Virus record (IMG/VR): IMGVR_UViG_3300017727_000011
Location: 1 to 59,445 of that record
DNA: 59,445 bases
Reading direction: 5' to 3' (one strand)
Origin: a virus
This document shows positions 1,494 through 55,752 of this stretch, piece by piece (position 1 is the stretch's first letter; the number at the start of each line of letters is the position of its first letter). The translations under genes were made by a program, and so were the position numbers. Under the pieces are notes generated by a model. The model worked only from the letters and a program-made list of their open reading frames with translations, had not been told where the DNA came from and ran no database searches.

Positions 1494-2174
1494 TTAAACT
1501 CCTGGATAAAAGTTTTTAGGAACAATATTCACTGAAGTCGATTGACTGTCTTCAGTAATTGCCCTGGCTAACTCTGATTCATATCTTCTTTCAAGTTCAC
1601 CTGATAAAGCAGGATTTACTTCTTGAGATAAATAATATGCAAGTCCACTTACCATACAAGGTAAGAAACGAAAAGGTGCATCAGCAGTGTTTGTATATGC
1701 TCCTACATCTTGTATTCTTCCAACGTACCAATAATTAATTTGTGTGTCTGTGGTTAGAGGTGTTAAGTAAAGATTAATTTCAACATTGGCTAAATTTCTT
1801 CTTACATAATATTGTGTAGGAGTTCCTGTTGATCCTTTATTTGGAATATTCTGATATTCTGATCTTGAAATTTTAGTCATTGTTGTATCAGTAACTGTGC
1901 TTCCTGATGTTTGTCTAAAAACCATTTCTAAAATATCATCTGCATCACTAGGTGCTGTATAAAGAGATGTACTTGCTGTTAAGTTAGCAGTGGTATTTTT
2001 TACTTTCCAAAGTTGATAACCTCTATTAGCCCATTCAGAAAACAACAAATTTAAATTATCTCTAGCAGCATCAAGATCATATCCTGTACGCATAGAACGA
2101 CCTGCTCTACGATAAGCACGTTCAATTACTCTATCTATATTAAGATTAAAATCTGTTGTTCCTGAAGTAGCCAT
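1494..2174 (-). CDS. Connector/neck adaptor-like protein
   Basis: 226 residues. It opens with a helical segment (DRVIERAYRRAGRSMRTGYD) and ARDNLNLLFSEWANRGYQLW, a pattern seen in many phage adaptor or tail-tube proteins encoded just after the head genes, followed by beta-rich sequence and a helical C-terminus (ELERRYESELARAI). It is distinct in sequence from the second adaptor-like gene at 34-726. Its stop is immediately followed by the ATG of the next gene. Role in closing the portal vertex is inferred from position and composition. Confidence 0.55.
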   Translation of the reverse strand: MATSGTTDFNLNIDRVIERAYRRAGRSMRTGYDLDAARDNLNLLFSEWANRGYQLWKVKNTTANLTASTSLYTAPSDADDILEMVFRQTSGSTVTDTTMTKISRSEYQNIPNKGSTGTPTQYYVRRNLANVEINLYLTPLTTDTQINYWYVGRIQDVGAYTNTADAPFRFLPCMVSGLAYYLSQEVNPALSGELERRYESELARAITEDSQSTSVNIVPKNFYPGV

Positions 2175-2177
2175 AAA

Positions 2178-2309
2178 TTATTTTTTCTTTTTCGTTGTTT
2201 TTTTTGTTTTCTTTTTTGTGACTTGTTTCTTCTTAGCCATTCCGCCACCACGCATTTTTAACATTCCGCCACCACGCATTTTTACAACATTTTTCTTTTT
2301 GCCCATCAT
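2178..2309 (-). CDS. 43-residue Lys-rich peptide with repeated MRGGGM motif
   Basis: The peptide reads MMGKKKNVV, then two copies of KMRGGGM, then a run of Lys and Thr (KKKTKKTTKKKK). The ATG overlaps the stop of the upstream gene as ATGA and it ends 3 nt before the next ATG, so it sits in the operon like a real gene. Small peptides with MRGGGM-type repeats are frequent in marine phages; function unknown. Its strong positive charge would suit binding to packaged DNA or RNA. Confidence 0.6.
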   Translation of the reverse strand: MMGKKKNVVKMRGGGMLKMRGGGMAKKKQVTKKKTKKTTKKKK

Positions 2310-2893
2310 TTTTTAGCTCCTTTGTTTAGCTGTTCATATAACATTTGTCTATTTTTCACTACATCATTATAATAGTCTTTTGGCCATAACTTATAATAAC
2401 CCATTTTATGTAATTTAACAGAAGCATAATATAATTGCGAGAACTTTTGTACAAGCATCATTGAGTACTCTAAATCAGATTTAGGTAAACTTTCTCTGTC
2501 TCCATTAGGTTCTACTAAAAAAGCTTGATCCTCATCATTTGCAGGATTCCTAGGATGAAATCCCATAAAATACAAATCTTTTTTATTATATTTGTTGTTA
2601 AAACGATCTACTTTAGTTTGAAATTTGTTCAATGAATATTCTTTAAAAGACAAATCACAGAATATTAATATTTCTTTTTTATTCCAATTTATTTCTTTTA
2701 TCTTGTTATTTAAGTTTCTTGTATAACCTTTTTCAATATTTCTTACATCTATTACTACTTTTTCATCTTTCCAAGCTTGTTTTGCGAAAGGACAAGCTGG
2801 CATTTTATTAAGATGTACGTTTGGTATTTCGAGATACTCTCTACTCCAAATCCTTAGATCTTCAGTGATTAGTTTAAGATTGTGTTTTTTCAC
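2306..2893 (-). CDS. Conserved hypothetical protein with PACPFAKQAW motif
   Basis: 195 soluble-looking residues without a signal or membrane segment. Near the N-terminus lies WSREYLEIPNVHLNKMPACPFAKQAW, an aromatic- and Pro-rich stretch with a single Cys that looks conserved, and later GFHPRNPANDEDQAFLVEP. I recall similar proteins in marine phages and bacteria but no function. It overlaps the coiled-coil gene upstream by 20 nt and is coupled by ATGA to the Lys-rich peptide downstream. Confidence 0.6.
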   Translation of the reverse strand: MKKHNLKLITEDLRIWSREYLEIPNVHLNKMPACPFAKQAWKDEKVVIDVRNIEKGYTRNLNNKIKEINWNKKEILIFCDLSFKEYSLNKFQTKVDRFNNKYNKKDLYFMGFHPRNPANDEDQAFLVEPNGDRESLPKSDLEYSMMLVQKFSQLYYASVKLHKMGYYKLWPKDYYNDVVKNRQMLYEQLNKGAKK

Positions 2894-3143
2894 TCAAAGC
2901 AATACCCATTTCCTCTGCTTTTTTAATTCTAGCAGAGATGGGTAAATTAATAAACCCTGTTCTCAAATCGAAAAATTTATCTGCCCACTTTGCTAATCTT
3001 TCAGTTAAAAAATTAATGTGTAAATCTTTTTCTTTCAATTGATCATCTTTCCTTGAATTTTCACCAAGAATTTTATTAATTTGTCTTTTTAAATCTTTAT
3101 TTTCTTTTTTCAAACGTGAAAAATCTTCTTCTTTCGGTGTCAT
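2874..3143 (-). CDS. Small coiled-coil protein
   Basis: 89 residues, mostly charged heptad-like helix (SRLKKENKDLKRQINKILGE and DQLKEKDLHINFLTERLAKW), so probably a coiled coil, ending in a short polar tail. No membrane segment. It follows a group of membrane-anchored proteins (3159-5760) and overlaps the next gene by 20 nt. Function unknown; it could be a cytoplasmic partner of those proteins. Confidence 0.5.
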   Translation of the reverse strand: MTPKEEDFSRLKKENKDLKRQINKILGENSRKDDQLKEKDLHINFLTERLAKWADKFFDLRTGFINLPISARIKKAEEMGIALSEKTQS

Positions 3144-3158
3144 ATAAAACCTTTCTTC

Positions 3159-3383
3159 TTAATATTCTTTATAGTTTTTAATTAAAAATTCTTCCATCCA
3201 AGCCATTTTTTCATCAATTGCTTGAATTTGGACTTTTATAACAGCTAGATCTTGTTGCATTTTTGCAACACTATCTGCTTTAACTTCTACTGCATTTAAA
3301 CGTTCTGACCACATGCCCCATGTCATGGCTAATGTGCCAAATAGCACTAGATAGGGTAATACTGTTTTAATTTCTAGTTTCAT
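3159..3383 (-). CDS. Small single-pass membrane protein
   Basis: 74 residues. One clear hydrophobic helix near the N-terminus (VLPYLVLFGTLAMTWGMW), then a helical tail (VKADSVAKMQQDLAVIKVQI) that could form a coiled coil. Its ATG overlaps the end of the preceding gene (3380-3383). Size and topology would suit a spanin-like or holin-accessory protein, but a holin is already present at 11551-11964 and no lipobox is seen. Function unknown. Confidence 0.5.
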   Translation of the reverse strand: MKLEIKTVLPYLVLFGTLAMTWGMWSERLNAVEVKADSVAKMQQDLAVIKVQIQAIDEKMAWMEEFLIKNYKEY

Positions 3384-3841
3384 TTTGTTTTAGCACTCAT
3401 ATTGTTTAAAGGGTTATTTAAAGCCTTATTAATTTGTAAGTCAAGGCTTTCTTCAATGAGCTTTAACTCATCAAATACTTCTCTTGTATCTTCTTTTTGT
3501 CTATCTTCCACGTCATTCACAATTTCGGTTATGTGTCGAATATCATTAGATTGTTGACGTAAATCAGCCTTCATATCTGAACGCATATCACGTGCCACAT
3601 CACTGATTATGGTAATTTCGTCCAATATTATATCTAGTTCTGATTTTAAAACTGCTATTTCTTCATCATATTTAGATAGATCGGGAGCTGTATACTCCAA
3701 AACTTTGGCGGTTAGGTCTTGATAATTTTTCCAAAATTCAAAGACTGCCCAAGCACCACTACCTAGGGCACCTAATAGTGTAAGAATAGCGAAAGCTTTA
3801 CCTCCACTTACCTTTAAACCCGAATATTCAATACTGGGCAT
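3380..3841 (-). CDS. Membrane-anchored coiled-coil protein
   Basis: 153 residues: short N-terminus, one hydrophobic helix (FAILTLLGALGSGAWAVF), then a long charged helical part to the end (LKSELDIILDEITIISDVAR, RHITEIVNDVEDRQ). Predicted as an inner-membrane anchor with an extended coiled coil. It overlaps both neighbours (14 nt upstream, 4 nt downstream), so it is translated with the secreted Glu-rich protein and the 74-residue membrane protein. This topology resembles inner-membrane spanins, but that is a guess. Confidence 0.5.
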   Translation of the reverse strand: MPSIEYSGLKVSGGKAFAILTLLGALGSGAWAVFEFWKNYQDLTAKVLEYTAPDLSKYDEEIAVLKSELDIILDEITIISDVARDMRSDMKADLRQQSNDIRHITEIVNDVEDRQKEDTREVFDELKLIEESLDLQINKALNNPLNNMSAKTK

Positions 3842-5279
3842 CTATCATCTCCTGAATTGTATTTTCCTGTGCCATTTCGAACAACATACCATACTGGTCT
3901 TCTATTGTCTTGTTTAAATATTCAGTAACGTTTGTGTCTTGTATGTATGACTGAGTATCAAAAAACGATTTTGTATTACCTAGTATTTGCATGACAATCA
4001 ATGTTTTTGTTTGAGCAGCATCATCATATCTTGCTTTGTCATCAATCTTTTTAACTATTTTAGTTGCTGCTTTTTCTTTAGCAGTAGGTTCTTTCTTAGG
4101 CTCTTCTTTTTTAGGTTCTTTCTTAGGCTCTTCCTTGGGTTCTTCTACCTCTTCAACCTTTTCTATTTCTTTAGGTGCTTCCTCAGGTTCTTTTATTTCT
4201 TCAACTTCTTCTTTGGGTTCTTCTACAGTTTCAACTTCAGGTTCAGGTTCAGGAATTTCTAACTCTAATTCCATTTCCATTTCTAATTCTAGCTCAATCT
4301 CTAATTCTTGCATTTCCATTTCAATCTCTGGAATCTCTGCTTTAAAATCTAATTCTAGTTCTACCATTTCTATTTCAACAGTTTCATAAGTGACTTCTTC
4401 GTATTCTTCTTCTATAGGTGCAAATTCTATATTACCTTCATCATTGGTTGTAATATCATTAAACTCAAATACTTCCTCTGCAAAATCTAACTCTGTTGAA
4501 TTAAATAAATTCAAATAAACTATTTCTTCTACTGAAGTTATCTGCTGTGTTATTATGGTGTCGATAACATTATAGAACACGTTAAGAGATACTGAATCAA
4601 AGACTGGTCCTACCGCTAGATTGACATCACGTCCACCAATTTCTATGGTGACTCTATTTAAAACGCCACTGAAATCGAAAGTGCCGTCATAAGACTGGTA
4701 TCCACTTGATATTCCAGATTCAGACAAGATATCAGTTCCTGTAAAGACTTGGCTACTTCCGTTAAGCCCTGTAATGTGCATGTATATTCTATCTTCAGCA
4801 TCCTGCTTATCTACCTCAATTGAGTATTTAACTTGACCACCCTTATCTATTTGTAAATCTGATAGATTAACATTTTGAATAAAGGTTGTTCCCATACCTT
4901 CAACTCCCATATTAGAAGTTGTGTTTCCACTACCTGTAATCTCTGCACATGTATCTGTGCCTAATCCGTAACAAGCATTTCCTGATCGCATACTAGCAGG
5001 CCCTTCACCACCCCAATCTTGAGACATATCAGGTAAGTTTAAAACATTACCAGAATCTTTGTTAGTGACTGTTACTGTTGTTGTGGTTTTGGTAGTCGTT
5101 GTTGTTGTAACAATTTCTGTACCTTTATCTTCTTCTATTTTGTCAATTTGTGTATCTTCTGTGATTGTGACTCCTGGAGTACAAAGTCCTTCAGTATCAG
5201 GTAGACAGTCTGCTTTAGAATAAAATGATACCAGTAAGAACAACAAGCATAGCTTTGTAAAGAGCAACGTTTTGTACAT
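3828..5279 (-). CDS. Large secreted or envelope protein with Glu/Pro repeat stalk
   Basis: 483 residues. An N-terminal signal peptide (LLFTKLCLLFLLVSFYSKADC) is followed by a Thr/Val-rich stretch, a beta-rich domain with Cys (about residues 85-250), then a long low-complexity acidic segment encoded around 4090-4400: first alternating hydrophobic/Glu (EMEMELELEI type), then Pro/Lys/Glu repeats (KEEPKKEPKKEEPK). The C-terminus is helical. The layout suggests an exported domain and an extended stalk crossing the periplasm. It overlaps the upstream secreted-protein gene by 65 nt in another frame. I do not recognise the family; a role in altering the host envelope, superinfection exclusion or lysis is inference. 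Confidence 0.55.
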   Translation of the reverse strand: MYKTLLFTKLCLLFLLVSFYSKADCLPDTEGLCTPGVTITEDTQIDKIEEDKGTEIVTTTTTTKTTTTVTVTNKDSGNVLNLPDMSQDWGGEGPASMRSGNACYGLGTDTCAEITGSGNTTSNMGVEGMGTTFIQNVNLSDLQIDKGGQVKYSIEVDKQDAEDRIYMHITGLNGSSQVFTGTDILSESGISSGYQSYDGTFDFSGVLNRVTIEIGGRDVNLAVGPVFDSVSLNVFYNVIDTIITQQITSVEEIVYLNLFNSTELDFAEEVFEFNDITTNDEGNIEFAPIEEEYEEVTYETVEIEMVELELDFKAEIPEIEMEMQELEIELELEMEMELELEIPEPEPEVETVEEPKEEVEEIKEPEEAPKEIEKVEEVEEPKEEPKKEPKKEEPKKEPTAKEKAATKIVKKIDDKARYDDAAQTKTLIVMQILGNTKSFFDTQSYIQDTNVTEYLNKTIEDQYGMLFEMAQENTIQEMIDAQY

Positions 5280-5760
5280 CTGTAAACTCCTCTGTTTCTG
5301 GTTTATTTGCTGTTAGATATTCTTCTCTATATCGAGAGCCCTCAGGGATCTCCTCTGGGTTTTCTTCCCAATAAGCGGCAGCTTCCGCTCCAATCAAACC
5401 TTGTACAGGACACGGGGTTCCTGCATCTGTCATGGCTGTCCAAGTACGATGGTCTTGACATAGTAGACTCACCGCAGCGACTTTCATACCGTAGGAATAA
5501 AGTGCCCTACTGGTGCGAACACGCTCACAAAATTCGTCTGTGATGACGTAACCTGTAGCTACTCCTAAAATATTATTTTGCACACTTCCTCCAATCCCAA
5601 CTTTACAAATATCATTATTATTATTGAGAATAGTCGGTGCGCTTGCTGTTGAAGGCGAGTTATTTAAAACTGTTGAGGATACGGTGTTGGTATTTGCTCT
5701 TGTGTCCGTTGCCACTGCTATTGCAGTAAAAAAGAATAATATAATTGCAAGTTGTTTCAT
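5215..5760 (-). CDS. Secreted protein with C-terminal membrane helix
   Basis: 181 residues from the ATG at 5760, which overlaps the stop of the Cys-rich micro-gene as TAATG. A signal peptide (MKQLAIILFFFTAIAVATDTRA) leads a Ser/Thr/Asn-rich region and a domain with four Cys (CKVGIG, CERV, CQDHR, CPVQG) that could form disulfides in the periplasm. The C-terminus is one hydrophobic helix (LYKAMLVVLTGIILF). It is the first of four overlapping membrane or secreted proteins. Function unknown. Confidence 0.55.
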   Translation of the reverse strand: MKQLAIILFFFTAIAVATDTRANTNTVSSTVLNNSPSTASAPTILNNNNDICKVGIGGSVQNNILGVATGYVITDEFCERVRTSRALYSYGMKVAAVSLLCQDHRTWTAMTDAGTPCPVQGLIGAEAAAYWEENPEEIPEGSRYREEYLTANKPETEEFTDVQNVALYKAMLVVLTGIILF

Positions 5761-44561: not shown

Positions 44562-44861
44562 ATGAAAGTAATTCGTAACTTCCAAGACTTTAAATTAACC
44601 GATTGCCCCTTAGTATTGGTTAAATGGCTTGATGCTCATGATGCTCTTGAGACAGGATGGCATGAATGGGCAGACATTTTTCGTAAAGCAAAGCTAGCAG
44701 AATGTACCTCAGTAGGTTATTTATTTCATCAAGATGATCAAAAGATAGTATTAGTTGCCGATGAATGTGGCGAATTTGGATCTCGTATTACAGTTATACC
44801 AGGCAACTGGGTAGAAGATGTAGAGTTTTTAAAAAAAAGTAAGTCTAAGGGATCTTCTTAA
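44562..44861 (+). CDS. Small plus-strand protein, WLDAHDALETGW family
   Basis: 99 residues: CPLVLVKWLDAHDALETGWH, then TSVGYLFHQDDQKIVLVADE, GSRITVIPGNWVEDVEFLK. This arrangement occurs in many marine phages as a conserved protein of unknown function. It is the only plus-strand gene inside the minus-strand tail block, has its own divergent start region, and overlaps the 3' end of the methyltransferase gene by 17 nt, so the two transcripts collide. Confidence 0.65.
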   Translation: MKVIRNFQDFKLTDCPLVLVKWLDAHDALETGWHEWADIFRKAKLAECTSVGYLFHQDDQKIVLVADECGEFGSRITVIPGNWVEDVEFLKKSKSKGSS

Positions 44862-45444
44862 GCCATCTTTCAGGATCATTTGATTTATCGTGATACCACG
44901 TAGACTCTTTGCCCATCATAACAGCTAAATGTGCATTGCCTTTATAATATTCAGATAAGCCTTTTTTACATCCCATTTCTACTGATTGCATGTAATAATC
45001 ATCACCAAACATTGTGCCGTCATCTTTAATTTTTGGTAACCAATTTAAAACATCTTCTGTAACAGCCTCATATTTATGATCAGCATCAACCATAACTGCA
45101 TCAAAATATTTATCATCAAACAACTTTACGGCTTCATCAGTACGCATTTTATGTACTTTTGTAATCCATCCTTCTTGCACTAAATGACCGCAGTGATCAA
45201 TAAACTTATCATAAAAAGATTCCATATGATCATGTTCACCTGATGTACCTTCAAAAGTATCTACAACATGAAATTCAAATTTTTTATTATGTTCCTTGAG
45301 CCGTGATGCAAGAAAGTTGGTGCTTTTTCCAAGCAAACATCCTAGTTCTATAAATTTACTTCCTTCGGGTAGTTTATGAGCAATCATCTCATACGTTTCC
45401 ATATAATTAAAGTATCCTGGTATTTCAAACCATGGTTTTGACAT
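44845..45444 (-). CDS. Class I SAM-dependent methyltransferase
   Basis: 199 residues. Motif I KFIELGCLLGKSTNF (E33-x-G35...G39), motif II FHVVDTFEGT (D62), motif IV DAVMVDADHKYEAVTEDVLN and MFGDDYYM, as in the Methyltransf_24 group, which act on small molecules, sugars or proteins. Start has GGAGAG upstream. It is at the end of the island of oxygenases and a glycosyltransferase, so a shared modification pathway is plausible. Confidence 0.75.
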   Translation of the reverse strand: MSKPWFEIPGYFNYMETYEMIAHKLPEGSKFIELGCLLGKSTNFLASRLKEHNKKFEFHVVDTFEGTSGEHDHMESFYDKFIDHCGHLVQEGWITKVHKMRTDEAVKLFDDKYFDAVMVDADHKYEAVTEDVLNWLPKIKDDGTMFGDDYYMQSVEMGCKKGLSEYYKGNAHLAVMMGKESTWYHDKSNDPERWLKKIP

Positions 45445-45753: not shown

Positions 45754-46470
45754 TTATTTAAAGGACTTTTTCTTCCAAATCTTTGTTTTATAGTTATCTA
45801 TAAAAGTAGAGAAAAACCCTAATGCTTTTTTATCATTAGTTTCTTGATCAGTTCTGTCTATATTTACACGTATTTCCCAAGATTCTCTTTTGAAAGGAAT
45901 AACTAAAGCCATAGGAGAGCCTTGTTCTAGAGTATAAGATTCGTGTGCATTCTTTGTCCAATAAAAAGGAAAATGAACTTGAAATTTATAATCATCAGTA
46001 TCAACAATTCCAGTTATTAAATCAAAGGGAAGATTTCTATTAAAAGGATTTATAAAAAGACAGCTATATCCTTTAGGAGTGCTTATAGTCCAAGGATTCA
46101 TAAATTTAAACACAGAATCGATTGTTCTTTTTGATGACCTCAAATCTGAACTTATTTGTTTTTCGTTATGTGAATTAACTCCTACACACTCTTTATCTAT
46201 AAAGTCAGTAGGAATATTACTATTTATAGCAAACTCAGATGTATTTTTTTCTTTGTCATAATGATATCGAATGTCTGTGGGAAAGGGAATAATATATCCA
46301 GTGGTATAAGCATCTAAAAAAGGAATACATGATTTTATTGTTCCGTTAGAAAATGTATCATCAATCCTACTTGTCATTTTTTTATAGGCTTCAGGTATAA
46401 AAAATTTAGCAGGTTTTGGATCAGGGATTAAACCTTTTAATATTGATTTAAATTGTATTTTATTGGTCAA
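45754..46470 (-). CDS. DUF6065-like protein, copy 1
   Basis: 238 residues. Shares with the next gene upstream the pattern C(I/P)xxxDxxxxGYI(I/V)P (here CIPFLDAYTTGYIIPFPTDI), an NPW block (KFMNPWTISTPKGYSCLFI) and a final GSPMALVIPFKRE. I believe this is the DUF6065 family (not checked), of unknown function. The start appears to be TTG at 46470, as no ATG lies near. A pair of such paralogs beside modification enzymes is unusual. Confidence 0.5.
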   Translation of the reverse strand: MTNKIQFKSILKGLIPDPKPAKFFIPEAYKKMTSRIDDTFSNGTIKSCIPFLDAYTTGYIIPFPTDIRYHYDKEKNTSEFAINSNIPTDFIDKECVGVNSHNEKQISSDLRSSKRTIDSVFKFMNPWTISTPKGYSCLFINPFNRNLPFDLITGIVDTDDYKFQVHFPFYWTKNAHESYTLEQGSPMALVIPFKRESWEIRVNIDRTDQETNDKKALGFFSTFIDNYKTKIWKKKSFK

Positions 46471-46482
46471 TATTTATTACTT

Positions 46483-47166
46483 TTATTTAAAACTATATTT
46501 ATATTTAAATTTATTATAACGCCTCAATATACCTAAGACTTCGGATTCAGAAGATTTTTCAGGATCATTTAAACTTTCTTTTTGAAACTCTAGTTTAAAA
46601 CTACCCGTCTTTATTGGAAAAAATTGAAACAAAGGTGTTCCTGCTGGAATTACATATGACCCATCTTTTTTGGTTAGTTTTAAAAAAATATGCATTCCAG
46701 GCATCCAACTAGATTCACTTAATCCTTCAGAAGACTCAAAAATGTCATCGTTTCTAAAAGGCACTTTATTAATAATTATTTTTGTATCAGGGGTAGTTTT
46801 AATATACCATGGATTCTCAATTTTTACCCAGCCTCCACACCAATGAGAGTTTTCATTTGTCTTCTTTATTGTTGGTTTGTTCCAAATATCTGAGTTTAAA
46901 GGCATGCGGGCATGAGTTCCGAAACTCACTATTTCTCCATTACGGATATCAAAGTACATATCACACCAACTAGGCACTATGTAGCCATAAGAGATTATAT
47001 CCATAATACCAGGACAACGTTTTGGATGAGCTTCTAGTTTAGGAGTCTTAATATCTAAATCAAATTTTTTAATTAGATCTTCTTTACGTTTATTTGCGGG
47101 GTAAATAGGGAACCATTTTTCGACTATAGGGTGCTCGCAACTAATTTTAATAGGTGTTTCGAACAC
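46483..47166 (-). CDS. DUF6065-like protein, copy 2
   Basis: 227 residues, paralog of 45754-46470: RCPGIMDIISYGYIVPSWCD, WVKIENPWYIKTTPDTKIII, VIPAGTPLFQFFPIKTG. The GTG start overlaps the preceding stop as TAGTG. Trp/His/Cys-rich middle (HWCGGWVKIENPW). Function unknown; the conserved strands and GTPLFQFFP end suggest a beta-sandwich. Confidence 0.5.
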   Translation of the reverse strand: MFETPIKISCEHPIVEKWFPIYPANKRKEDLIKKFDLDIKTPKLEAHPKRCPGIMDIISYGYIVPSWCDMYFDIRNGEIVSFGTHARMPLNSDIWNKPTIKKTNENSHWCGGWVKIENPWYIKTTPDTKIIINKVPFRNDDIFESSEGLSESSWMPGMHIFLKLTKKDGSYVIPAGTPLFQFFPIKTGSFKLEFQKESLNDPEKSSESEVLGILRRYNKFKYKYSFK

Positions 47167-47714: not shown

Positions 47715-48245
47715 CTATTGTATACTAAAATTGCAAGAAAGTACTATTCTTTCCTCATCTTGATTAGGACCTACATAGTGTGGTAAAGACCCAGAAAAAA
47801 TAACAAATTTTGATTCTTCTGCGTCTACTGGAATTCCTTTTGTTGGAATATAAGGAAAACCTGGAGCCATAAAAACAGTTTCAGAAGAATCTTTAGTGCA
47901 CTGTATATAGAAAATTAAAGAATAGTCATTCACTCCACAGTTATGAACATGCGTTTCATGAAAATCATTTTTTCTATAAGCTTGAATCCATGATCCCTGC
48001 ATATCAAATGTTTTCTTTTTCATAATATGCTCTGTAAAAATTTTGATATACTTGTATACGTGATTTTTTAAATCAACAAGTTTCTCATCTTTTAATATTT
48101 CTGGATTATCAAAATATGTTGTAAGCATTTCCCCGCTCACAAAAGAAAAACCTTTTATAAAATCTATTGTTGTTTTTTTATTAAATTCAGAAGGTATTTC
48201 GTAAATTGAAGTGACAAAGTTATGTCTTTTTATTTCTATTTCCAT
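47715..48245 (-). CDS. 2OG-Fe(II) oxygenase-like protein 1
   Basis: 176 residues. The double-stranded beta-helix core is marked by WIQAYRKNDFHETHVHNCG (H99/H101 as iron ligands), DYSLIFYIQC, then FVIFSGSLPHYVGPN (distal H156) and ERIVLSCNFSI (R166 for 2-oxoglutarate). This HxH variant is like the 2OG-FeII_Oxy_5 group common in marine phages. Substrate unknown. It lies just downstream of the tail-nozzle-like gene. Confidence 0.7.
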   Translation of the reverse strand: MEIEIKRHNFVTSIYEIPSEFNKKTTIDFIKGFSFVSGEMLTTYFDNPEILKDEKLVDLKNHVYKYIKIFTEHIMKKKTFDMQGSWIQAYRKNDFHETHVHNCGVNDYSLIFYIQCTKDSSETVFMAPGFPYIPTKGIPVDAEESKFVIFSGSLPHYVGPNQDEERIVLSCNFSIQ

Positions 48246-48277
48246 CTATGTTTAATTTATCTCTCCTTAATAAGTCT

Positions 48278-50107
48278 TTATCTTCTACCGTCAGGCTGTA
48301 CATCAAAACGTTGTGTACCCAATCTCCATGCAGTTCCTGCAGTGTTTGAAACAACATTGACTGTGAATTCTCTACCTCTACCTCGTAAACTCACAAACTC
48401 TGTAGTATCACTGAATGTTGTAGTTTTGGTAACGCTTTGTGTGTTGTTAGGGTAGTATTTAAATTCTAAATCCATATTTAAAACACCTGATTGGTTTTGT
48501 ATATCAGGTATTAATTTCTGTACAAAAAGTATATCATTTCCTTCCCCTATTTCAACAGATCCAGATTTTACAAAAGCGGTCATTGCTTGGCCATCAGCGT
48601 CATTACCAGCTTCGTGTAGATACAATTGAGATGCTCCATTAGTCAAACCTAATATTGTTTCATTATTGGCTGTTATAGTGGCATCGTATTCTGTTCCCAC
48701 AGGATTATCATAAACTTCTCTATCAATCCAAGCTGTGCGGGAGAGAGTCCCTGTCCACCAAGTTTGCTCTAAATAATTATAAGCCACAACAGCGTTTATT
48801 TGATTAGATCCTTCTCTAGCATAAAACCAAAGTATTTCATTAAATTCACCATTATGCCCTGCAAAAGCATTTTCGGATCCTGTCTGATTAATATTATCAA
48901 AAACAAATTGTTCTACGGTGCAAGGAAGTTTTTTCACAGTACCATCAAAAAGATAAAAAGAATCTTGAGACATCCAGTAAGAAACACCATTTAAATCAAC
49001 GCCCGCATGTTGTCCAATAATCCCACAGTTTTGACCTAGTTGTCTAAGACCAAAAGTAAATGGCGGACCAATAAATTGCATTGAGTGCAATGAAGTGTCA
49101 GTCCAAACAAGTATCTGTCCTCTAGAACGTTCAGCTGCCACGATTCGTGATCCGTCAGCAATACGTAATGAGCCTGCAGTATTTTCTGCTGTGGGTTGAT
49201 ATGTAGTAATATTTTCTTGATCTGAAAATCTTATTAACAAGTCATCTTGACTTGTTACATCTCCAACTACACTTTCTGTCCCCATAATTAATAAATGTCG
49301 GTCAGGAGTAGAAATTAAACTTAATCGTGAAGCAGTTGGAGCATTTGTAATAGCGGCTGCTCTTGTAGAGAGTCCAACAGAGGTATCCCATTTAAAAGTC
49401 CCTCCGTTTAAAACAGTTGCAATAAGATCCTCTCCAAAATTATCTAAGGACCACTGTCTAGCAGCAAGAGTTACGTTGGATGCTGTTGAAGGACTTCCCC
49501 AACCACCTGCGCTCCATTCGTCTGTTCCATAACCATAAGCAAGAAGAGAAAATTCGGGACCAGGATTAATTTGATAATTAGCGTTACCTGTTCCTCCACC
49601 ACCTGCGGTGGAGCCAGAGGCAGTGCTTGTATGGGTAACTACATATGCACTTGTATTAACAATCGAGGTGACTTCAAATTCATTGTTCATATTCAATCCG
49701 TCTATAGCGGAAAAAGAATCAAACGTTACAAAACTACCTTGAATACATCCGTGACCTGAGTCAGTCACCAAGACAGAAGTAGTAGCATTCGTGGTGAAAG
49801 GATTAGTTAAAGAAGTTGGTCCTCTTCTAATAGGTGTAATATCATAAGCTAGTCCCTCTTGAATAACATAAAGTTTTCTATCAGTGCCTACTGCATTAAA
49901 TCTTGTGCCGTCTAAAGATACCCAGGCGTGTTGATCACGCACCACTCCTACAATGGTGGAAATGATGAACTTTTCCCAACCTTTTATTTTTTGAGGTAAT
50001 CCTTGAAAAAAGCGTACATTATCACTGTCTGTCCATCTATTTTCACCTGTATAGTCGGTTACTTCTTTATTGATACCTGGAGCTGGTCTAAAATTAACTA
50101 GGGGCAT
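48278..50107 (-). CDS. Tail nozzle/stabilisation-like protein
   Basis: 609 residues, beta-rich throughout, starting MPLVNFRPAPGINKEVTDYT and WTDSDNVRFFQGLPQKIKGW. This opening is typical of the large tail-tube/nozzle proteins of podoviruses (T7 gp12 or P22 gp10-like), with repeated W/Y-rich strands (LAYGYGTDEWSAGGWGSPST, WTGTLSRTAWIDREVYDNP). It has its own promoter just before the ATG and no ribosome site. Family assignment is by pattern memory. Confidence 0.65.
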   Translation of the reverse strand: MPLVNFRPAPGINKEVTDYTGENRWTDSDNVRFFQGLPQKIKGWEKFIISTIVGVVRDQHAWVSLDGTRFNAVGTDRKLYVIQEGLAYDITPIRRGPTSLTNPFTTNATTSVLVTDSGHGCIQGSFVTFDSFSAIDGLNMNNEFEVTSIVNTSAYVVTHTSTASGSTAGGGGTGNANYQINPGPEFSLLAYGYGTDEWSAGGWGSPSTASNVTLAARQWSLDNFGEDLIATVLNGGTFKWDTSVGLSTRAAAITNAPTASRLSLISTPDRHLLIMGTESVVGDVTSQDDLLIRFSDQENITTYQPTAENTAGSLRIADGSRIVAAERSRGQILVWTDTSLHSMQFIGPPFTFGLRQLGQNCGIIGQHAGVDLNGVSYWMSQDSFYLFDGTVKKLPCTVEQFVFDNINQTGSENAFAGHNGEFNEILWFYAREGSNQINAVVAYNYLEQTWWTGTLSRTAWIDREVYDNPVGTEYDATITANNETILGLTNGASQLYLHEAGNDADGQAMTAFVKSGSVEIGEGNDILFVQKLIPDIQNQSGVLNMDLEFKYYPNNTQSVTKTTTFSDTTEFVSLRGRGREFTVNVVSNTAGTAWRLGTQRFDVQPDGRR

Positions 50108-50113
50108 ATCGTC

Positions 50114-50141
50114 AATATACTATTGATTGAAAGTAATTCAA
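50114..50141 (-). promoter_or_regulatory. Promoter without leader before the tail-nozzle gene
   Basis: TTGAAT (50136-50141), 16-nt spacer, TATATT (50114-50119), then GACGAT and the ATG at 50107. No ribosome site lies in the 6-nt gap, so the message would start at or next to the start codon. Confidence 0.5.
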
Positions 50142-50148
50142 TAGAGTT

Positions 50149-50679
50149 TTAAGAAGCTATTGCTTGAAAATTAAAAGCTAGTGTGATTCTTTGATGATCT
50201 TTACCTCCACAAGGGCTAACAGAATGAGGCATTAATCCCCTGAAGAAAACCATACGTCTTTCTACTGGTACAAAATTAAAATCTTCAGTTATCATTGCAG
50301 GAACTAAATGAGAAAAATTTGTAGTTGCTTTGTCACAACAAACTTTGTGGTAATAAATTACTGACCACTCTTCAAGACCATGAATATGAACTCTATTAAA
50401 ATCATTACCTGAATTAATATTTAACCAAAAAGTATTTAATTGTGCCTTGAGGCCTATGGTTGCAAAACCATCAACGGCAAATTTTATTAAATTACTAAAA
50501 CCAAAAGTAATAGAGTTGCTTTGATAGCCTCCTTCATTACTAAGTTGCCTTCCTTTATCGAAAGTTAAAATATGTTCTATGTGTGATTGTATGGTATCTG
50601 CATCACCTTTGTAATCATTGTAAAAAATTGATTCTTTATAAATTACTTGTTCAATCATACTTTTAGATAAACATTTCAA
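50149..50679 (-). CDS. 2OG-Fe(II) oxygenase-like protein 2
   Basis: 176 residues (TTG 50679; ATG 50658 is an alternative start). Core motifs: FWLNINSGNDFNRVHIHGLE (H98/H100), SVIYYHKVCC, MVFFRGLMPHSVSPC (H152) and HQRITLAFNF (R164). The same HxH subgroup as 47715-48245. The fit to the phage 2OG-FeII_Oxy_5 pattern (W-N...HxH...SxxYY...PHxVxP...RIxLAFN) is good. Substrate unknown. Confidence 0.75.
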   Translation of the reverse strand: MKCLSKSMIEQVIYKESIFYNDYKGDADTIQSHIEHILTFDKGRQLSNEGGYQSNSITFGFSNLIKFAVDGFATIGLKAQLNTFWLNINSGNDFNRVHIHGLEEWSVIYYHKVCCDKATTNFSHLVPAMITEDFNFVPVERRMVFFRGLMPHSVSPCGGKDHQRITLAFNFQAIAS

Positions 50680-50682
50680 AGT

Positions 50683-51486
50683 TTAGTTTGTTTTTTTAGC
50701 AAACAAAGATCCTACATGACCCTTGAAAGCTCTATTACCAAAGTGTGTTAGAGGCATAGCTATATCAGCCCATATATCTCCACCACATTCCTGCCATAAT
50801 CTAGAGAAATAGTAGTCCTCTGATAAATATCTTCTAGTACCGTTTGTTTCATAAATTCCTGCACAAAATAAATCATAGCAGTTATCAGAGCTAAAAGATT
50901 TACCATTGATGATTTGATCAGAAGTATATTTGCGTTCTGGGAATTTCTTCATCATAGTCCTAAATACTTCTCTTTTGACAAGCATCATCCCTGTAGCTGC
51001 CTCTTGTACCTTACAGAAACCATCTTCCATTTTAACATTCTTTGGATCATCAAAGTTAAGGTTATATCCAAGACTTTTAACTTCAAGTTCCTCAGGAGTA
51101 GCATTCGGATTTTCTTTTAAAATGCCTGGTATTTTCTCTAAGTGAAGGTGTTTTCTTGGATAGATACCACATACAACATCTTTATCAAAAGCAAGCATAC
51201 GTTCAATGTTTTGAGATTGAAAACCTATATCAGAATCAATGAATAATAAATGTGTAGCAATGTAATCTGTTTGATCCATCATCATAGAAACACAAGTATT
51301 TCTTGCTCTGGTAATTAAACTTTCATTGCCCATTGTTTGAACACGCATTCCAACGCCTTTTGCCATTGACCACTGCTGTAGCTGCAATAACCCGTGCATT
51401 GTATTTTCTGTTAACATACCACCATACATAGGCATGCCTAAAAATATCTTAAATTTCTTGTCTTTTAGTTCTTCTGGTTTAATCAT
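50683..51486 (-). CDS. Glycosyltransferase (GT-A fold)
   Basis: 267 residues. FKIFLGMPMYGGMLTENTMH start, ESLITRARNTCVSMMM, then HLLFIDSDIGFQSQNIERML with the DxD (D84, D86) that holds the metal and nucleotide sugar, VCGIYPRK, and LSEDYYFSRLWQECGGDIW (acceptor-side acid). This is the GT-A arrangement of phage-encoded glycosyltransferases. GGAGAAA ribosome site. Standing between oxygenases, it may glycosylate the product they hydroxylate; that is inference. Confidence 0.75.
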   Translation of the reverse strand: MIKPEELKDKKFKIFLGMPMYGGMLTENTMHGLLQLQQWSMAKGVGMRVQTMGNESLITRARNTCVSMMMDQTDYIATHLLFIDSDIGFQSQNIERMLAFDKDVVCGIYPRKHLHLEKIPGILKENPNATPEELEVKSLGYNLNFDDPKNVKMEDGFCKVQEAATGMMLVKREVFRTMMKKFPERKYTSDQIINGKSFSSDNCYDLFCAGIYETNGTRRYLSEDYYFSRLWQECGGDIWADIAMPLTHFGNRAFKGHVGSLFAKKTN

Positions 51487-52024
51487 TAATTTCTCCTAAC
51501 CATTTTATTGATATTCTAGCAATATGTGGTTCATTAAAAGCATTAGCTCTATGTACATCACTAGCCGTTATTGTTACAACTCTGCCATATTTATAAGGAA
51601 CAGTTACGTTCATTGTCTGATTTATAAATTCACCACCAATATTTTCAACAATTTCATTACTTAACATTAATATGTGAGCCACTTCATCATCTCTGCCATC
51701 TACGTGAAAGGTGCCGTCCATACTTTTAAATTGTAAATTTGTACTACATTCTATTAACCGTAAATCTTTTTTTAATCTTTGATTAATAGCCTTAAAGGCA
51801 TCTATAAAACTATTAGATAAAGTTCTATTTGAGTTATACTCTATGTTATCTTCACTAAGTCTACGAAAAAAAGTATCGCCCAACAACCTATGTGAGCCTC
51901 TTTCTTTATAAGGCCAAGAATTTCTATTTGCAACATTGTGTGCATGCCAAGGAGCTAAAATTAATTGACTTGTAATTTCATCTAAATATTTTTTATCAAA
52001 AATATCGTCACAGTAAGTAATCAT
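51479..52024 (-). CDS. 2OG-Fe(II) oxygenase-like protein 3
   Basis: 181 residues. TFHVDGRDDEVAHILMLSNE carries HxD (H107, D109), GGEFINQTMNVTVPYKYGRV, then SDVHRANAF (H158) and HIARISIKW (R170): the complete His-x-Asp...His plus Arg set of prolyl-4-hydroxylase-type enzymes. N-terminal half helical (LILAPWHAHNVANRN). Overlaps the glycosyltransferase start by 8 nt, suggesting joint production. Confidence 0.75.
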   Translation of the reverse strand: MITYCDDIFDKKYLDEITSQLILAPWHAHNVANRNSWPYKERGSHRLLGDTFFRRLSEDNIEYNSNRTLSNSFIDAFKAINQRLKKDLRLIECSTNLQFKSMDGTFHVDGRDDEVAHILMLSNEIVENIGGEFINQTMNVTVPYKYGRVVTITASDVHRANAFNEPHIARISIKWLGEIND

Positions 52025-52518
52025 TAATGAAGCCTATTGTTTTCAAAAAAATTTATATTTACAACTATTCTTCTATTTGTATCTGTTTGACTTACAGATC
52101 TGTGCTCTATATTTGAATCGAACAACACTATAGAATTTTCTTGATTTGGAATAATAATTCCGTCTTTTAACTCAGTATACCCATTACAGTTATTTAAATA
52201 AAAAATACCTGTTTTACACTTAAAGGGCATATCTACATGATAGGCTGATTTAAAAACGGTTTCTTTTTTTAAAACTAGATTGGCTCTTGCAATAACAAGA
52301 GAAACACAATTAATTCTATCTAAAATATGAGGAATAAAAGAATGATACAAATTAGATTGTATTTCATTTTTTACATAGAAACAGTGCATAAAAAAATTAT
52401 TTTTATCATATGCTGTCATGGTGTCTCTATAAAACCATGAAGTTTCTTCGGACATCATTTCATTTTTAAAACTTAAAAACAAATTCTCCTCTAAAACATT
52501 ATTTATAATTCTATACAT
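52024..52518 (-). CDS. 2OG-Fe(II) oxygenase-like protein 4
   Basis: 164 residues: SAYHVDMPFKCKTGIFYLNN (H94, D96), GIIIPNQENSIVLFDSNIEH (H139) and NRRIVVNINFF (R149 or R150). All expected metal and co-substrate residues are present. The start overlaps no upstream gene and has only a weak ribosome site. Its stop overlaps the next ATG (position 52024). Substrate unknown. Confidence 0.7.
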   Translation of the reverse strand: MYRIINNVLEENLFLSFKNEMMSEETSWFYRDTMTAYDKNNFFMHCFYVKNEIQSNLYHSFIPHILDRINCVSLVIARANLVLKKETVFKSAYHVDMPFKCKTGIFYLNNCNGYTELKDGIIIPNQENSIVLFDSNIEHRSVSQTDTNRRIVVNINFFENNRLH

Positions 52519-52545
52519 AAAGATTTTGTTATCTTCTATATTTTA

Positions 52546-53175
52546 TTAAGGTTTTTTTAAAAAACCAATATTGTGCCTTCCGTCATATTTTTGATCTTTA
52601 TAGTTTTCATCATCTTCGTCCACATAATGTAAAAATGTTTGCACACAATGATCTCCTTCAAAAGCATCTCTCCAGTGCAATAATTCTTGACCCATATAGA
52701 CAGCCCCTTCTCCTGGTTTTAAAGTAAGTTCATTTAAAATCTTAACCTTTTGTCCATTATATAAGACACCGTCTTTTGAATTAGGATCAAGTACACCGTA
52801 ATAAATAGACCAAGGATCTCCTCCAATGTTTACAGTAACTGAATATTGACAAGCTGGTCTATCACTGTGAATTTTTAATTCTTCTCCTGCCACGTATACT
52901 CTGCTATAAGAGTAAGTAGGACAAAGATTTTTTTGCACTATATTAGATAAAGGTTTATCTAGTTGTGATAAAAGAGTTTCTGCTGTTAGATCACCATAAG
53001 ATCCTTTTAAAAAATCATCATAAATTGATTTGTCCATTTCTGCTGAATCATTAAAGTCTCTATTTGTACATGCTTTTAATACAAAGTAATTATATAAAAA
53101 ATTAATAACGTCTGGAGAAATTAAATTTTCTACTACGACATATTTATTTTTTTTAAAATACTCTATCTTATCCAT
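52546..53175 (-). CDS. 2OG-Fe(II) oxygenase-like protein 5
   Basis: 209 residues: SRVYVAGEELKIHSDRPACQ (H103, D105), YSVTVNIGGDPWSIYY, KPGEGAVYMGQELLHWRDAF (H167) and QTFLHYVDED. The usual Arg about ten residues after the distal His is not obvious here, which also holds for the related phage subgroup with HWRD as far as I recall. N-terminal YFKKNKYVVVENLISPDVIN resembles phytanoyl/prolyl hydroxylase openings. Overlaps the next gene by 13 nt. Confidence 0.65.
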   Translation of the reverse strand: MDKIEYFKKNKYVVVENLISPDVINFLYNYFVLKACTNRDFNDSAEMDKSIYDDFLKGSYGDLTAETLLSQLDKPLSNIVQKNLCPTYSYSRVYVAGEELKIHSDRPACQYSVTVNIGGDPWSIYYGVLDPNSKDGVLYNGQKVKILNELTLKPGEGAVYMGQELLHWRDAFEGDHCVQTFLHYVDEDDENYKDQKYDGRHNIGFLKKP

Positions 53176-53744
53176 ATTACTAACACCTTCCTTACACCTT
53201 CTAAAACAGGTTCAACTTTATGAGGAAAACAAAGATTACTAGGAAACATCACTGCTTGGTTTTTTTTCAACTTAAATTTATATTTATCATTGATAACGTT
53301 AAGCTGCCCGCCCATATAATCATTATTTAAGCCTACTATTATAGTAAATTCTCTAGGAGTAAATTTGCCTGAATCTTTATGCCAGTCATAATGTCCTTTA
53401 TCTTCGGATTGATATTTTAAAAAAGAATAATCGAATTCAGCTTGTTCTTCTTTTTTCAAACTTAAAGCAGAACAATAAGTGTTATAAATAGTATTTACTG
53501 TTCTTGTTAACTCGTTAAATAGAATTCTAGAAGATATTGAATTTCCAATATCTTCTTCTTTAAAAAATAAAGTTTTTACTCTGCGAACTTCTGGATCAAT
53601 AAGACCTTGTCCATTTTTTGCAACTACTTGAGCTTCAAGAAAATTTGATTTTTTGAAAATAACATTATCAATAGCGTCTAATAATGATTTATTGCCAAAA
53701 TCATCAAAAGTTCTTATGAAGTCAGAAAGACTAAAGTTATGCAC
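53163..53744 (-). CDS. 2OG-Fe(II) oxygenase-like protein 6 (prolyl hydroxylase type)
   Basis: 193 residues: FLKYQSEDKGHYDWHKDSGK (H122, D124), FTPREFTIIVGLNNDYMGGQ, LKKNQAVMFPSNLCFPHKVE (H175) and GVRKVLVIWI (R185). This is the classic P4Hc pattern (HxD, MGG(Q/E)L, FPS...PHKV, R). The best candidate of the six for a protein prolyl/lysyl hydroxylase. It overlaps the structural gene upstream by 8 nt, so production is linked to a virion protein. Confidence 0.8.
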   Translation of the reverse strand: MHNFSLSDFIRTFDDFGNKSLLDAIDNVIFKKSNFLEAQVVAKNGQGLIDPEVRRVKTLFFKEEDIGNSISSRILFNELTRTVNTIYNTYCSALSLKKEEQAEFDYSFLKYQSEDKGHYDWHKDSGKFTPREFTIIVGLNNDYMGGQLNVINDKYKFKLKKNQAVMFPSNLCFPHKVEPVLEGVRKVLVIWIR

Positions 53745-54210
53745 TTAAAATATTATTCTTTGCTGTTGTTGCTTGGGCTGATGCATTTGATTCTGCTGAT
53801 TCGTAGTCAGCCGCATATGTTTCTGAAGTTGCATCAAGATTAGCCACTAAGTCACTTAAAACAGAGTTATAAGTATCCTCATAAGTCTTTTCTCCGTTCC
53901 ATCTAGTTATCATTGTATTAGCCCAAGAAGGAATATCAGCTGAACTAGACAAAACTAAATTGTGAGCATTGCCCACATATTCTAATTCTCCACTGTCAGT
54001 TACTGGAGAAAACTGTAGCGCATGTACGTTTGAAGGAATAATGTCACTTGATGAAATATTTAAATATGCTCTACCATCAATAACTACATCAGCCTCAGTA
54101 TTTCCTGAATACTTTGCTGGCCCATCGTTAGGGTTAGAACTATTAATATCGGCATCATTAATGATGCTTATCTGATTATTTGCGGTTACGTTGTTTATTG
54201 TTATTGGCAT
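53737..54210 (-). CDS. Tail-associated structural protein
   Basis: 157 residues: MPITINNVTANNQISIINDA, beta-rich middle with YLNISSSDIIPSNVHALQF and a helical Ala/Ser-rich end (NLDATSETYAADYESAESNA). It resembles small structural proteins of marine myo- and podoviruses that carry a WNGEK-type block (here ITRWNGEKTYED). Sits between the 4-Cys gene and the first oxygenase, overlapping both. Confidence 0.5.
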   Translation of the reverse strand: MPITINNVTANNQISIINDADINSSNPNDGPAKYSGNTEADVVIDGRAYLNISSSDIIPSNVHALQFSPVTDSGELEYVGNAHNLVLSSSADIPSWANTMITRWNGEKTYEDTYNSVLSDLVANLDATSETYAADYESAESNASAQATTAKNNILSA

Positions 54211-54643
54211 TTTTTGTTACCTTTGTTTTACCTTTCTTCTTTTTATCAAGTTTTTTATTAGAAAGCAAGTTGATATCCTCTGGAACATCTTTACCTTCTT
54301 TCAAACTTTCTTGAGCATCTCCTATAGCCTCCCAAACACTGCCTGCTTCTTTAAGTTTAGGATTTTCTTTTTCTTGAGCCATTTTAGGCAACATTGAAAG
54401 AGTCACCATATTGGCTTTAACCATTTCATTTCTAAAAGATTCTACAGCAGCTGTTGTTTGAATTTGTTTACCGTTATTTTCAACCAAAAGAAGAGGTAGC
54501 CAAGCAACTGAACATCCCCACTCTTGAACAGGTGCTCCTGTTTGAGGATTATTACCTTGAAGCATATTATACCAAATACACTGGTGTTTTATGCATTTTT
54601 TATTTAAAAGAGGACACTTACCGTCTGGATCAAAAATAGGCAT
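54176..54643 (-). CDS. Conserved four-Cys protein
   Basis: 155 residues. N-terminal CPLLNKKCIKHQCIWY and EWGCSVAWLPLLLVENN give four Cys (C10, C17, C22, C44) with strongly conserved surroundings; then TAAVESFRNEMVKAN and a Lys/Glu-rich tail. I recognise this CP..KKC..H.C.WY...EWGC pattern from cyanophages and other marine phages. The spacing could hold zinc or an Fe-S cluster. Function unknown. Promoter at 54655-54682. Confidence 0.6.
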   Translation of the reverse strand: MPIFDPDGKCPLLNKKCIKHQCIWYNMLQGNNPQTGAPVQEWGCSVAWLPLLLVENNGKQIQTTAAVESFRNEMVKANMVTLSMLPKMAQEKENPKLKEAGSVWEAIGDAQESLKEGKDVPEDINLLSNKKLDKKKKGKTKVTKNANNNKQRNRK

Positions 54644-54654
54644 TTCTAATTAAA

Positions 54655-54682
54655 ACTATACAAAATATTTTTTTAAAATCAA
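54655..54682 (-). promoter_or_regulatory. Promoter before the four-Cys gene
   Basis: TTGATT (54677-54682) overlaps the fibre gene stop codon, 16-nt spacer, TATAGT (54655-54660), then 11 nt to the ATG with no ribosome site. Would drive the four-Cys gene and the oxygenase island. Confidence 0.45.
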
Positions 54683-55752
54683 TCTTTAGTAGCCGCTATG
54701 ATATCTTCATACTTAACGTCCATAGTAGGAACAGTCAAGGAGACGCTGTCAGAACTCACTGAACCACTAGCTGTTATTGGAGAACCACTAAAAGGGTGGC
54801 TGTGTGCACCACTGCCTCCTGTACCGCCAGAATTTCTAGCAGGTTGATTATCATAAAACGGAACATAGTAATTATTAGCTGGGGTTTGATATCTATAATT
54901 AGTGAAAGTACCTCTAGGTACTGCACCAGATGCACTTGAGGGGTGAGTGTGTGATGCTATTGTTGGAGAACCCAAAGAAGTGTCACCTGTAGAACCACTT
55001 ACTGTTCCTGAACTACTTACCGCAAAAGGAACTGTTTTTGCTTCTGTTGTTTTACTTGAAGCAAGAGTCGTTGTAAATCCATCAGCACCACCTACGCCTC
55101 CACCTGATCCTGTTACAACTCTTAAACAACAATCGTTTATGGTAGCCGCTGTATTTTGTGTCCAACCTGTTGGTGCGGTTCCTTGATAAAAAAGAGCCGT
55201 TGATCCTGAAGGAATAGATGAAACACCTGTCAAGTTAGCTCCATTGCCTGAATAAGTTGTTGCGTTAACGGTTCCGTTAGAAGATATAACTGTTCCATTA
55301 ACAGTCAAAGATTCTTTAACACTAAAAGTTCCAAGAGAATTAGCAAAAAGATCGACCATTGCATCCCCTTTATTATACATTATTGTGTGTGCTCCCTGTA
55401 CAACAGTTACTCCATTTGATCCGTGGCCCGTAGGCGCTACAGTCAAAGATTGTGATCCTGATGTATTATTAAAGAATATGTAGTTGGACTCTACGGCAGG
55501 AACAAAAACAGTAATATCTCCTGTTAGAGCGCCTGTAAACTCTATGACTTTGTTAGATGCTTCAGCATTTGGATCAGCATTATTTGTGGACAAAGTTACA
55601 TTAGCAGAACCAGCGACATCTTTAGATAAATAACCAGCAGTGAAAGCATCAATTGTTTCTAAATTTGTGTTGGTGTTATTCCCCCATGTATTTGCATTGG
55701 CTCCTGTTTCTTGAAGTTCTAATTTATATCTATCTGAATAAGTGCTTGTCAT
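54679..55752 (-). CDS. Tail fibre/collar protein, paralog 1
   Basis: 357 residues. The first half (YSDRYKLELQETGANANTWG, AFTAGYLSKDVAGSANVTLS, GALTGDITVFVPAVESNYIF, TVAPTGHGSNGV) is shared with the next two genes and probably attaches to the tail. The second half is a collar-like domain: STALFYQGTAPTGWTQ then Gly-rich stretches with HTHP and HSHPF, the His pairs that bind metal in T4 gp12-type trimers. This copy has the most diverged C-terminal part (RYQTPANNYYVPFYDNQPAR). AAAGGATT ribosome site. Confidence 0.7.
   Translation of the reverse strand: MTSTYSDRYKLELQETGANANTWGNNTNTNLETIDAFTAGYLSKDVAGSANVTLSTNNADPNAEASNKVIEFTGALTGDITVFVPAVESNYIFFNNTSGSQSLTVAPTGHGSNGVTVVQGAHTIMYNKGDAMVDLFANSLGTFSVKESLTVNGTVISSNGTVNATTYSGNGANLTGVSSIPSGSTALFYQGTAPTGWTQNTAATINDCCLRVVTGSGGGVGGADGFTTTLASSKTTEAKTVPFAVSSSGTVSGSTGDTSLGSPTIASHTHPSSASGAVPRGTFTNYRYQTPANNYYVPFYDNQPARNSGGTGGSGAHSHPFSGSPITASGSVSSDSVSLTVPTMDVKYEDIIAATKD

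Follow-up and report, generated by a model that had tools for sequence, protein, structure and literature searches.

Background

Why would one phage carry six different 2-oxoglutarate (2OG)/Fe(II) oxygenase-like genes and a glycosyltransferase (GT) packed between its tail genes? The question is raised by IMG/VR record IMGVR_UViG_3300017727_000011, a 59.4 kb virus whose whole length (59,445 nucleotides) is called the window here. Many marine phages have oxygenase arrays, and these genes are usually assigned to host metabolism. We find that the two oxygenase genes nearest the tail fibre are inherited together with the C-terminal part of the fibre, and that members of the array are fused to one another in related phages. 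Co-variation and fusions provide a testable alternative to the host-metabolism reading, namely modification of a virion protein. One of the two, of a family annotated as 'ferrochelatase', has the predicted fold of an oxygenase.

Clustering of oxygenases in this phage group has been known since 2022, and the island itself is not new. Wittmers et al. 2022 (PMC9599517) describe eight distinct co-located 2OG-Fe(II) oxygenases with adjacent 'ferrochelatases' in HTVC023P-type pelagiphages, the same phage group and the same kind of cluster as in the window. New here, and not found in the open-access literature, are the co-inheritance with the fibre tip, the combination of a stable GT with oxygenases that vary, the gene fusions and the predicted fold of the DUF6065 neighbours; arrays of 8-10 or more genes are also new.

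The oxygenase island

Genes of the window include those for a large portal protein, terminase, DNA polymerase, primase and helicases. Its tail stabilization protein is ~38-45% identical to those of the Pelagibacter phages HTVC023P and HTVC027P, of 023Pt_psg01 and of lake phage DSL-LC04. Because of these sequence matches we class the window phage as a relative of SAR11 (HTVC023P-type) podoviruses, which does not by itself establish its host. The G+C content is 34% for the whole window and 28% for the oxygenase stretch 51479-53744.

A first-pass annotation of the window had listed six oxygenase-like frames (47715, 50149, 51479, 52024, 52546 and 53163). All six are present, intact and on the minus strand, with the motif types described, two HxH and four HxD. 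The co-substrate Arg that it saw in most of them is conserved in five and lacking from 52546 in all 181 homologues. The six genes and one GT gene are packed between the tail fibres and the stabilization gene, with overlaps or gaps of -13 to +41 bp. Tail genes do flank the island, a tail-fibre-like gene lying on one side and the phrog_3287 stabilization gene among the oxygenases, and a gene that is GT-like by weak profile matches and a DxD motif does lie between oxygenases. From the fibre inward the features are:

54679..55752, minus strand: tail-fibre-like protein closest to the island; N-terminal match to phrog_31104
54176..54643, minus strand: small gene T, between fibre and oxygenases; co-inherited block
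53737..54210, minus strand: small gene S, between fibre and oxygenases; co-inherited block
53163..53744, minus strand: oxygenase F; 2OG-FeII_Oxy_3 / phrog_61; H122, D124...H175...R185
52546..53175, minus strand: oxygenase E; PHROG 'ferrochelatase' family; H103, D105, H167; predicted 2OG-oxygenase fold
52024..52518, minus strand: oxygenase D; phrog_274; H94xD96...H139...R150
51479..52024, minus strand: oxygenase C; divergent phrog_274; H107xD109...H158...R170
50683..51486, minus strand: glycosyltransferase-like protein; phrog_1574, DSD/DAD motif
50149..50679, minus strand: oxygenase B; 2OG-FeII_Oxy_5 / phrog_81; H98xH100...H152...R164
48278..50107, minus strand: tail stabilization / virion structural protein, conserved anchor; phrog_3287, 3.6e-82
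47715..48245, minus strand: oxygenase A; 2OG-FeII_Oxy_5 / phrog_81; H99xH101...H156...R166

Co-variation with the tail fibre

Pairwise divergence was compared by rank correlation over 32 loci with the complete gene set. The fibre C-terminal part, T, S, F and E had mutual correlations of 0.75-0.87. F and E correlated with the fibre C-terminal half at 0.77 and 0.78, compared with 0.11 and 0.22 for the GT and 0.25 and 0.35 for the fibre N-terminus. For the whole block of fibre C-terminus, T, S, F and E, correlations were 0.25-0.45 with the N-terminal 130 residues of the fibre and 0.10-0.22 with the GT, which correlates instead with the stabilization protein (0.49). From this pattern, the fibre tip and F-E form one exchange block, with one edge within the fibre gene and the other separating E from the GT. 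By analogy with the usual fibre architecture, the C-terminal part is presumed to bind the receptor. In an exploratory partial Mantel test on a small sample (n=19), the oxygenase past the GT tracked the fibre C-terminus as well (0.375, p 0.0045, uncorrected for multiple testing), and the intervening GT did not. Simple linkage does not predict this, and we take it as a hint of function.

Arrays in related loci

Approximately 320 loci were fetched and then scored (321 loci) with profiles built from window genes; those retrieved by means of an island gene favour islands, so that counts give a range and not a frequency. The set does recur in relatives, oxygenase arrays being common among these loci, with ten family matches in 5.9 kb in locus L107 and nine in L124. 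The genes often follow one order, in which the tail fibre is succeeded by F and E, then by 0-2 oxygenases, the GT, again 0-2 oxygenases, and the stabilization gene; E lies directly upstream of 42 of the 126 GT genes. In the compared relatives, the stabilization protein is 71-89% and the GT 72-88% identical to that of the window. The six oxygenases are 26-78% identical or absent, except that 51479 reaches 82% in one lineage (L302/L303); a near-identical copy of the window was left out of this comparison. Only ~5% of GT pairs that are 90-95% identical have an adjacent upstream oxygenase that is ≥60% identical. The GT and the tail hub are conserved, and the oxygenases turn over. The fixed stepwise pathway that had been proposed for the island is not supported by these loci, since F, E and GT aside, the gene set changes from phage to phage.

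E is fused to F in three loci (L008, L299 and L284) and to the GT, as one open reading frame of 469 aa, in L305. The fusions suggest that the enzymes are linked to each other, although the single E-GT fusion could reflect a lost stop codon. A further locus (L332, 271-7766) consists almost entirely of oxygenase-like genes in succession (ten of the twelve listed are family matches, the others being a DUF6445 gene and a gene without a match), on a contig that is binned to a Flavobacteriaceae metagenome-assembled genome (MAG) and is possibly viral.

The 'ferrochelatase' family

Protein E matches phrog_2954 (8e-40), which carries the PHROG label 'ferrochelatase'. An AlphaFold (AF2) model was built from 67 window and IMG/VR relatives, with a predicted local distance difference test (pLDDT) score of 92.5 and a predicted template modelling (TM) score of 0.89. 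The model has the double-stranded beta-helix fold, and 522 PDB entries matched it in Foldseek at E≤0.001. The best 50 of these are almost all 2OG oxygenases (PHD2, bacterial P4H, HalB, FtmOx1) and include no ferrochelatase. The Pfam ferrochelatase model PF00762 had no match in the 67 family members, nor in the record at E≤10. The HxD...H metal triad (H103, D105, H167) and R169 of an HWR signature are each invariant in 181/181 homologues, in which no Arg or Lys is conserved beyond H167+2. A last-strand Arg or Lys that binds 2OG is usual in 2OG oxygenases, but is not their sole defining feature. We assign E to the 2OG/Fe(II) oxygenases by its predicted fold and its triad; it probably uses 2OG, although the missing last-strand residue leaves this in some doubt. 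Since comparison of the E profile with single window oxygenases gave no signal, the link to the other oxygenases rests on the fold; PDB sequence searches with the E, GT and DUF6065 profiles gave nothing useful. As judged from the model, E and the phrog_2954 family are not ferrochelatases, but oxygenase-fold proteins.

The same signature is found in phages studied previously. The 'ferrochelatases' of S-PM2, S-SM1 (two), HTVC008M, HTVC023P and 023Pt_psg01 all have HxD...HWR, and that of Sf-FR1 has HxD...HYR. HTVC027P has no 'ferrochelatase' gene in the region that was inspected. Viral fold matches of the E model include the S-SM1 'Ferrochelatase' and the P-SSM2 'DNA endonuclease V'. Homologues of E occur in at least 121 phage records and, among the matches listed, most are annotated 'ferrochelatase'. 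PMC9599517 argues for a heme-pathway or iron partner role of the 'ferrochelatase' beside the oxygenases; here that family has an oxygenase fold by prediction. Ideas about phage heme and iron metabolism that were built on the label (PMC9599517, PMC11561400, PMC3037559) need correction. We did not find the oxygenase identity of this family stated in the open-access literature, and earlier statements elsewhere are possible. The PHROG names of phrog_2954, phrog_3531 and phrog_274 ('ferrochelatase' or 'DNA endonuclease V') appear wrong and have been copied widely into GenBank records.

Homologues of E outside phages are sparse; one genome scan returned 17 loci, many of which are phage contigs. One homologue, from a Pyrinomonadaceae MAG (L334), adjoins a JmjC-type gene and an 89-residue peptide (1565-1834), in which QPSPGG repeats (four QPSPG) come after a leader-like stretch of the double-glycine type. 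In another genome (L347), the E homologue is paired with an F-like oxygenase. These neighbours, few in number, favour a peptide substrate. The L334 set may be an undescribed peptide-modification cluster. A recognition domain of ribosomally synthesized and post-translationally modified peptides, suspected by eye to be fused to the E homologues of L349-L351, was dropped when Pfam gave no support.

The other oxygenases and the putative glycosyltransferase

A, B, C, D and F each combine a family profile match with a conserved triad and Arg, and are probable 2OG oxygenases on these sequence features. A and B are above-cut-off members of PF13759 (3.4e-7 and 2.6e-7) with HxH...H...R, also match phrog_81, and score under the cut-off of TIGR02466. 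F matches PF13640 (2OG-FeII_Oxy_3; 1.6e-14) and phrog_61 (1.9e-30), and phrog_274 is matched by D (2.2e-37) and C (2.2e-16). By column conservation HxH..H..R is near-invariant in A, with HxH and H in 38/38 homologues; in B, H98/H100 are kept in 33/33 and H152/R164 in 32/33. HxD..H..R is conserved across 31 homologues of D (H139 in 30), and H175/R185 in 98 of 99 homologues of F, whose metal motif is H122-K-D124 and not an upstream HYD. Conservation is weakest for C, for which just 4 homologues were aligned; C is scarce (10 copies in 321 loci), and 9 of the 10 are directly upstream of the GT. Overall, metal-ligand residues are near-invariant despite 30-55% identity. Motif searching alone was rejected as evidence; an HxD..H..R-like pattern arises in 41% of shuffled sequences, and the case therefore rests on profiles, conservation and fold. 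The checks put forward with the first-pass annotation yielded profile matches for all six proteins and a predicted fold for 52546. Its view that the six differ, and are not a recent expansion, holds: significant alignments were found just between 47715 and 50149 (31%, 92 aa) and between 47715 and 52024 (38 aa), and proteins that share so little sequence are not recent duplicates.

The label of phrog_274, 'DNA endonuclease V', is apparently a misnomer for a 2OG family, going by its sequence features. The 'DNA endonuclease V' proteins of P-SSM2 and ACG-2014b are among the fold matches of the E model, and HxD...H is conserved. The GT belongs to a PHROG without a name (phrog_1574) and has weak similarity to the glycosyltransferase phrog_34859 (1.2e-6) and to Anp1 (0.007). 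Its DxD motif, FIDSDIGF or FIDADIGF, is conserved.

Proposed function and alternatives

We tentatively read the island, at a little under an even chance, as a late, virion-linked protein-modification module in which a tail or fibre protein would be hydroxylated and then glycosylated. F and E would hydroxylate a late-made phage protein, with the tail fibre or one of its tail neighbours as the likeliest target, and the GT would add a sugar onto the new hydroxyl. The remaining oxygenases, exchanged between phages, would give further oxidations and thereby alter the decoration pattern. The benefit could be a changed receptor contact, fibre stability, or the look of the virion to host surface defences. 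Late expression, substrate, order of steps, sugar and benefit are all inferred from the genes. A bolder version, in which the array of divergent oxygenases with its constant GT puts a phage-specific hydroxyl/sugar pattern on the fibre and is swapped as a unit with the receptor-binding end, in effect a tail-decoration code, is speculative and on balance rather unlikely. If true, host recognition would be set by chemistry plus protein sequence.

Hydroxylation followed by glycosylation of fibre or tail proteins had been suggested at first pass, with collagen-like proteins as the example. The link to the fibre gains from the co-variation of F and E with its C-terminal half and from the E-GT fusion. 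Also in favour of the module are the recurrent gene order, the behaviour of the oxygenase past the GT, the E-F fusions, the near-invariant metal ligands, the neighbours of the cellular E homologues, the gene row of Sf-FR1 and the L230 precedent (both below). A collagen-like substrate is not evident; inspection by eye showed no Gly-X-Y repeat in the fibres and no collagen-like frame in the window. Several other points also weigh against the proposal. S and T correlate with the fibre C-terminus (0.75 and 0.83) as strongly as F does, and because they track the fibre too, linkage and co-transfer of the block can explain much of the fibre signal. The GT homologues of HTVC023P and HTVC027P are separated from the oxygenases and sit downstream of the tail hub. 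The GT itself is classed as GT-A-like by weak profile matches and its DxD motif, and the co-substrate of E is uncertain without the usual 2OG-binding Arg/Lys. No direct report of phage tail hydroxylation was found in the open-access literature.

Three other explanations bear on the same observations. The enzymes could act not on proteins but on glycans, lipids or small molecules of the host or the phage, such as lipopolysaccharide (LPS) or a surface glycan produced in the course of infection, with the link to the fibre arising from co-evolution of the fibre and cell-surface chemistry, as in superinfection exclusion. Co-variation with the fibre C-terminus fits this idea as well. Surface-glycan enzymes are common among GT families, PMC9599517 interprets pelagiphage GTs as modifying LPS, and the E model also matches the sugar-tailoring AviO1 and EvdO1 and two enzymes of free amino acids, HalB and a trans-proline hydroxylase. 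However, no genes for sugar-nucleotide synthesis, a flippase or a polymerase were recognised beside the island, and the E-F and E-GT fusions, with the peptide-linked cellular homologue of E, point to work on peptides; we consider the glycan explanation unlikely. The oxygenases may also be passengers that serve an unrelated metabolism, such as 2OG draw-down, nitrogen signalling as suggested for cyanophages, or iron handling, on a block that runs from the fibre end through T, S and F to E and recombines as one. The behaviour of S and T is as expected on such a block. 2OG signalling has been proposed for cyanophages (PMC3037559), and iron-related readings are given in PMC12753301 and PMC9599517. 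Yet a single oxygenase could do the work of consuming 2OG, which leaves up to ten divergent enzymes with conserved metal ligands unexplained, the oxygenase past the GT still tracks the fibre, and the iron argument was partly built on a 'ferrochelatase' label that is wrong here. This makes a passive cassette improbable in our view.

Least probable, and very much so, is a role of the oxygenases and GT in DNA-base modification or in AlkB-like repair of alkylation damage, protecting the phage genome. Some HTVC023P-type clades carry thymidine hypermodification genes, according to PMC9599517. The DUF6065 neighbours (below) have a dUTPase-like predicted fold that hints at nucleotides, and cellular E homologues weakly match an AlkB-type Pfam model (best 2.4e-5). 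For DNA-base modification in the window, which the first-pass annotation had offered as an option, we found no positive evidence; thymidylate synthase is absent from the record. The array is located among virion genes, at a distance from the polymerase. Its co-variation is with the fibre and not with the genome core, and DNA protection does not explain such turnover of oxygenases.

Relation to known systems

A precedent for viral hydroxylation followed by glycosylation is mimivirus L230, in which a lysyl hydroxylase and a glucosyltransferase modify a viral collagen (PMC9546862). In L230 and human LH3, a 2OG oxygenase and a GT act in sequence, sometimes as one polypeptide, which can be compared with the E-GT fusion of L305. 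The enzymes and presumed targets of the island differ from these and are non-collagen, and the likeness is one of general logic, not of direct family comparison. T4-like cyanophages (S-SM1, Sf-FR1) and the pelagimyophage HTVC008M (Sullivan et al. 2010, PMC3037559) differ in morphology and share series of consecutive genes labelled 2OG, 'leprecan', 'DNA endonuclease V' and 'ferrochelatase', in some cases close to tail or neck genes. None of their inspected loci showed the constant GT-E arrangement.

In cyanophage Sf-FR1, genes for a fibre, a tryptophan halogenase, a 2OG protein, an 'endonuclease V' and a 'ferrochelatase' stand in a row before neck genes. Flavin tryptophan-halogenase-like genes of T4-like phages lie near tail genes, beside oxygenase or DUF6445 genes (L356, which is Sf-FR1, 1421-5630); a similar gene, read by eye, is beside oxygenase or DUF6445 genes in L337 (9060-12620).

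Neighbouring genes

Three further genes lie beyond oxygenase A:

46483..47166, minus strand: second, divergent DUF6065 protein; phrog_7084, 1.5e-24
45754..46470, minus strand: DUF6065 protein, predicted dUTPase-like fold; phrog_7084
44845..45444, minus strand: class I methyltransferase (Methyltransf_24); PF13578, 4.3e-19

The methyltransferase had been counted with the island. Its identity stands (PF13578, 4e-19), but it was rejected as a regular member of the pathway on frequency, with 7 copies in 321 loci. Elsewhere in the window, beside head genes, a 483 aa protein (3828-5279) without a PHROG match has a signal-like N-terminus and a long Glu/Val/Pro/Lys-rich repeat stretch.

The AF2 model of the DUF6065 protein 45754 (pLDDT 88.9) has dUTPases as its top PDB matches in Foldseek (9 at E≤0.001; target-normalised TM score at most ~0.7). 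Its GIVDTD-x-Y resembles dUTPase motif 3, and hhalign aligned the motif 3/4 region with E. coli Dut at E 0.011; Pfam dUTPase had no match anywhere in the record. By prediction, the DUF6065 family has a dUTPase-like fold. The two divergent DUF6065 proteins are side by side in the window (45754-47166), and the family recurs beside oxygenase arrays.

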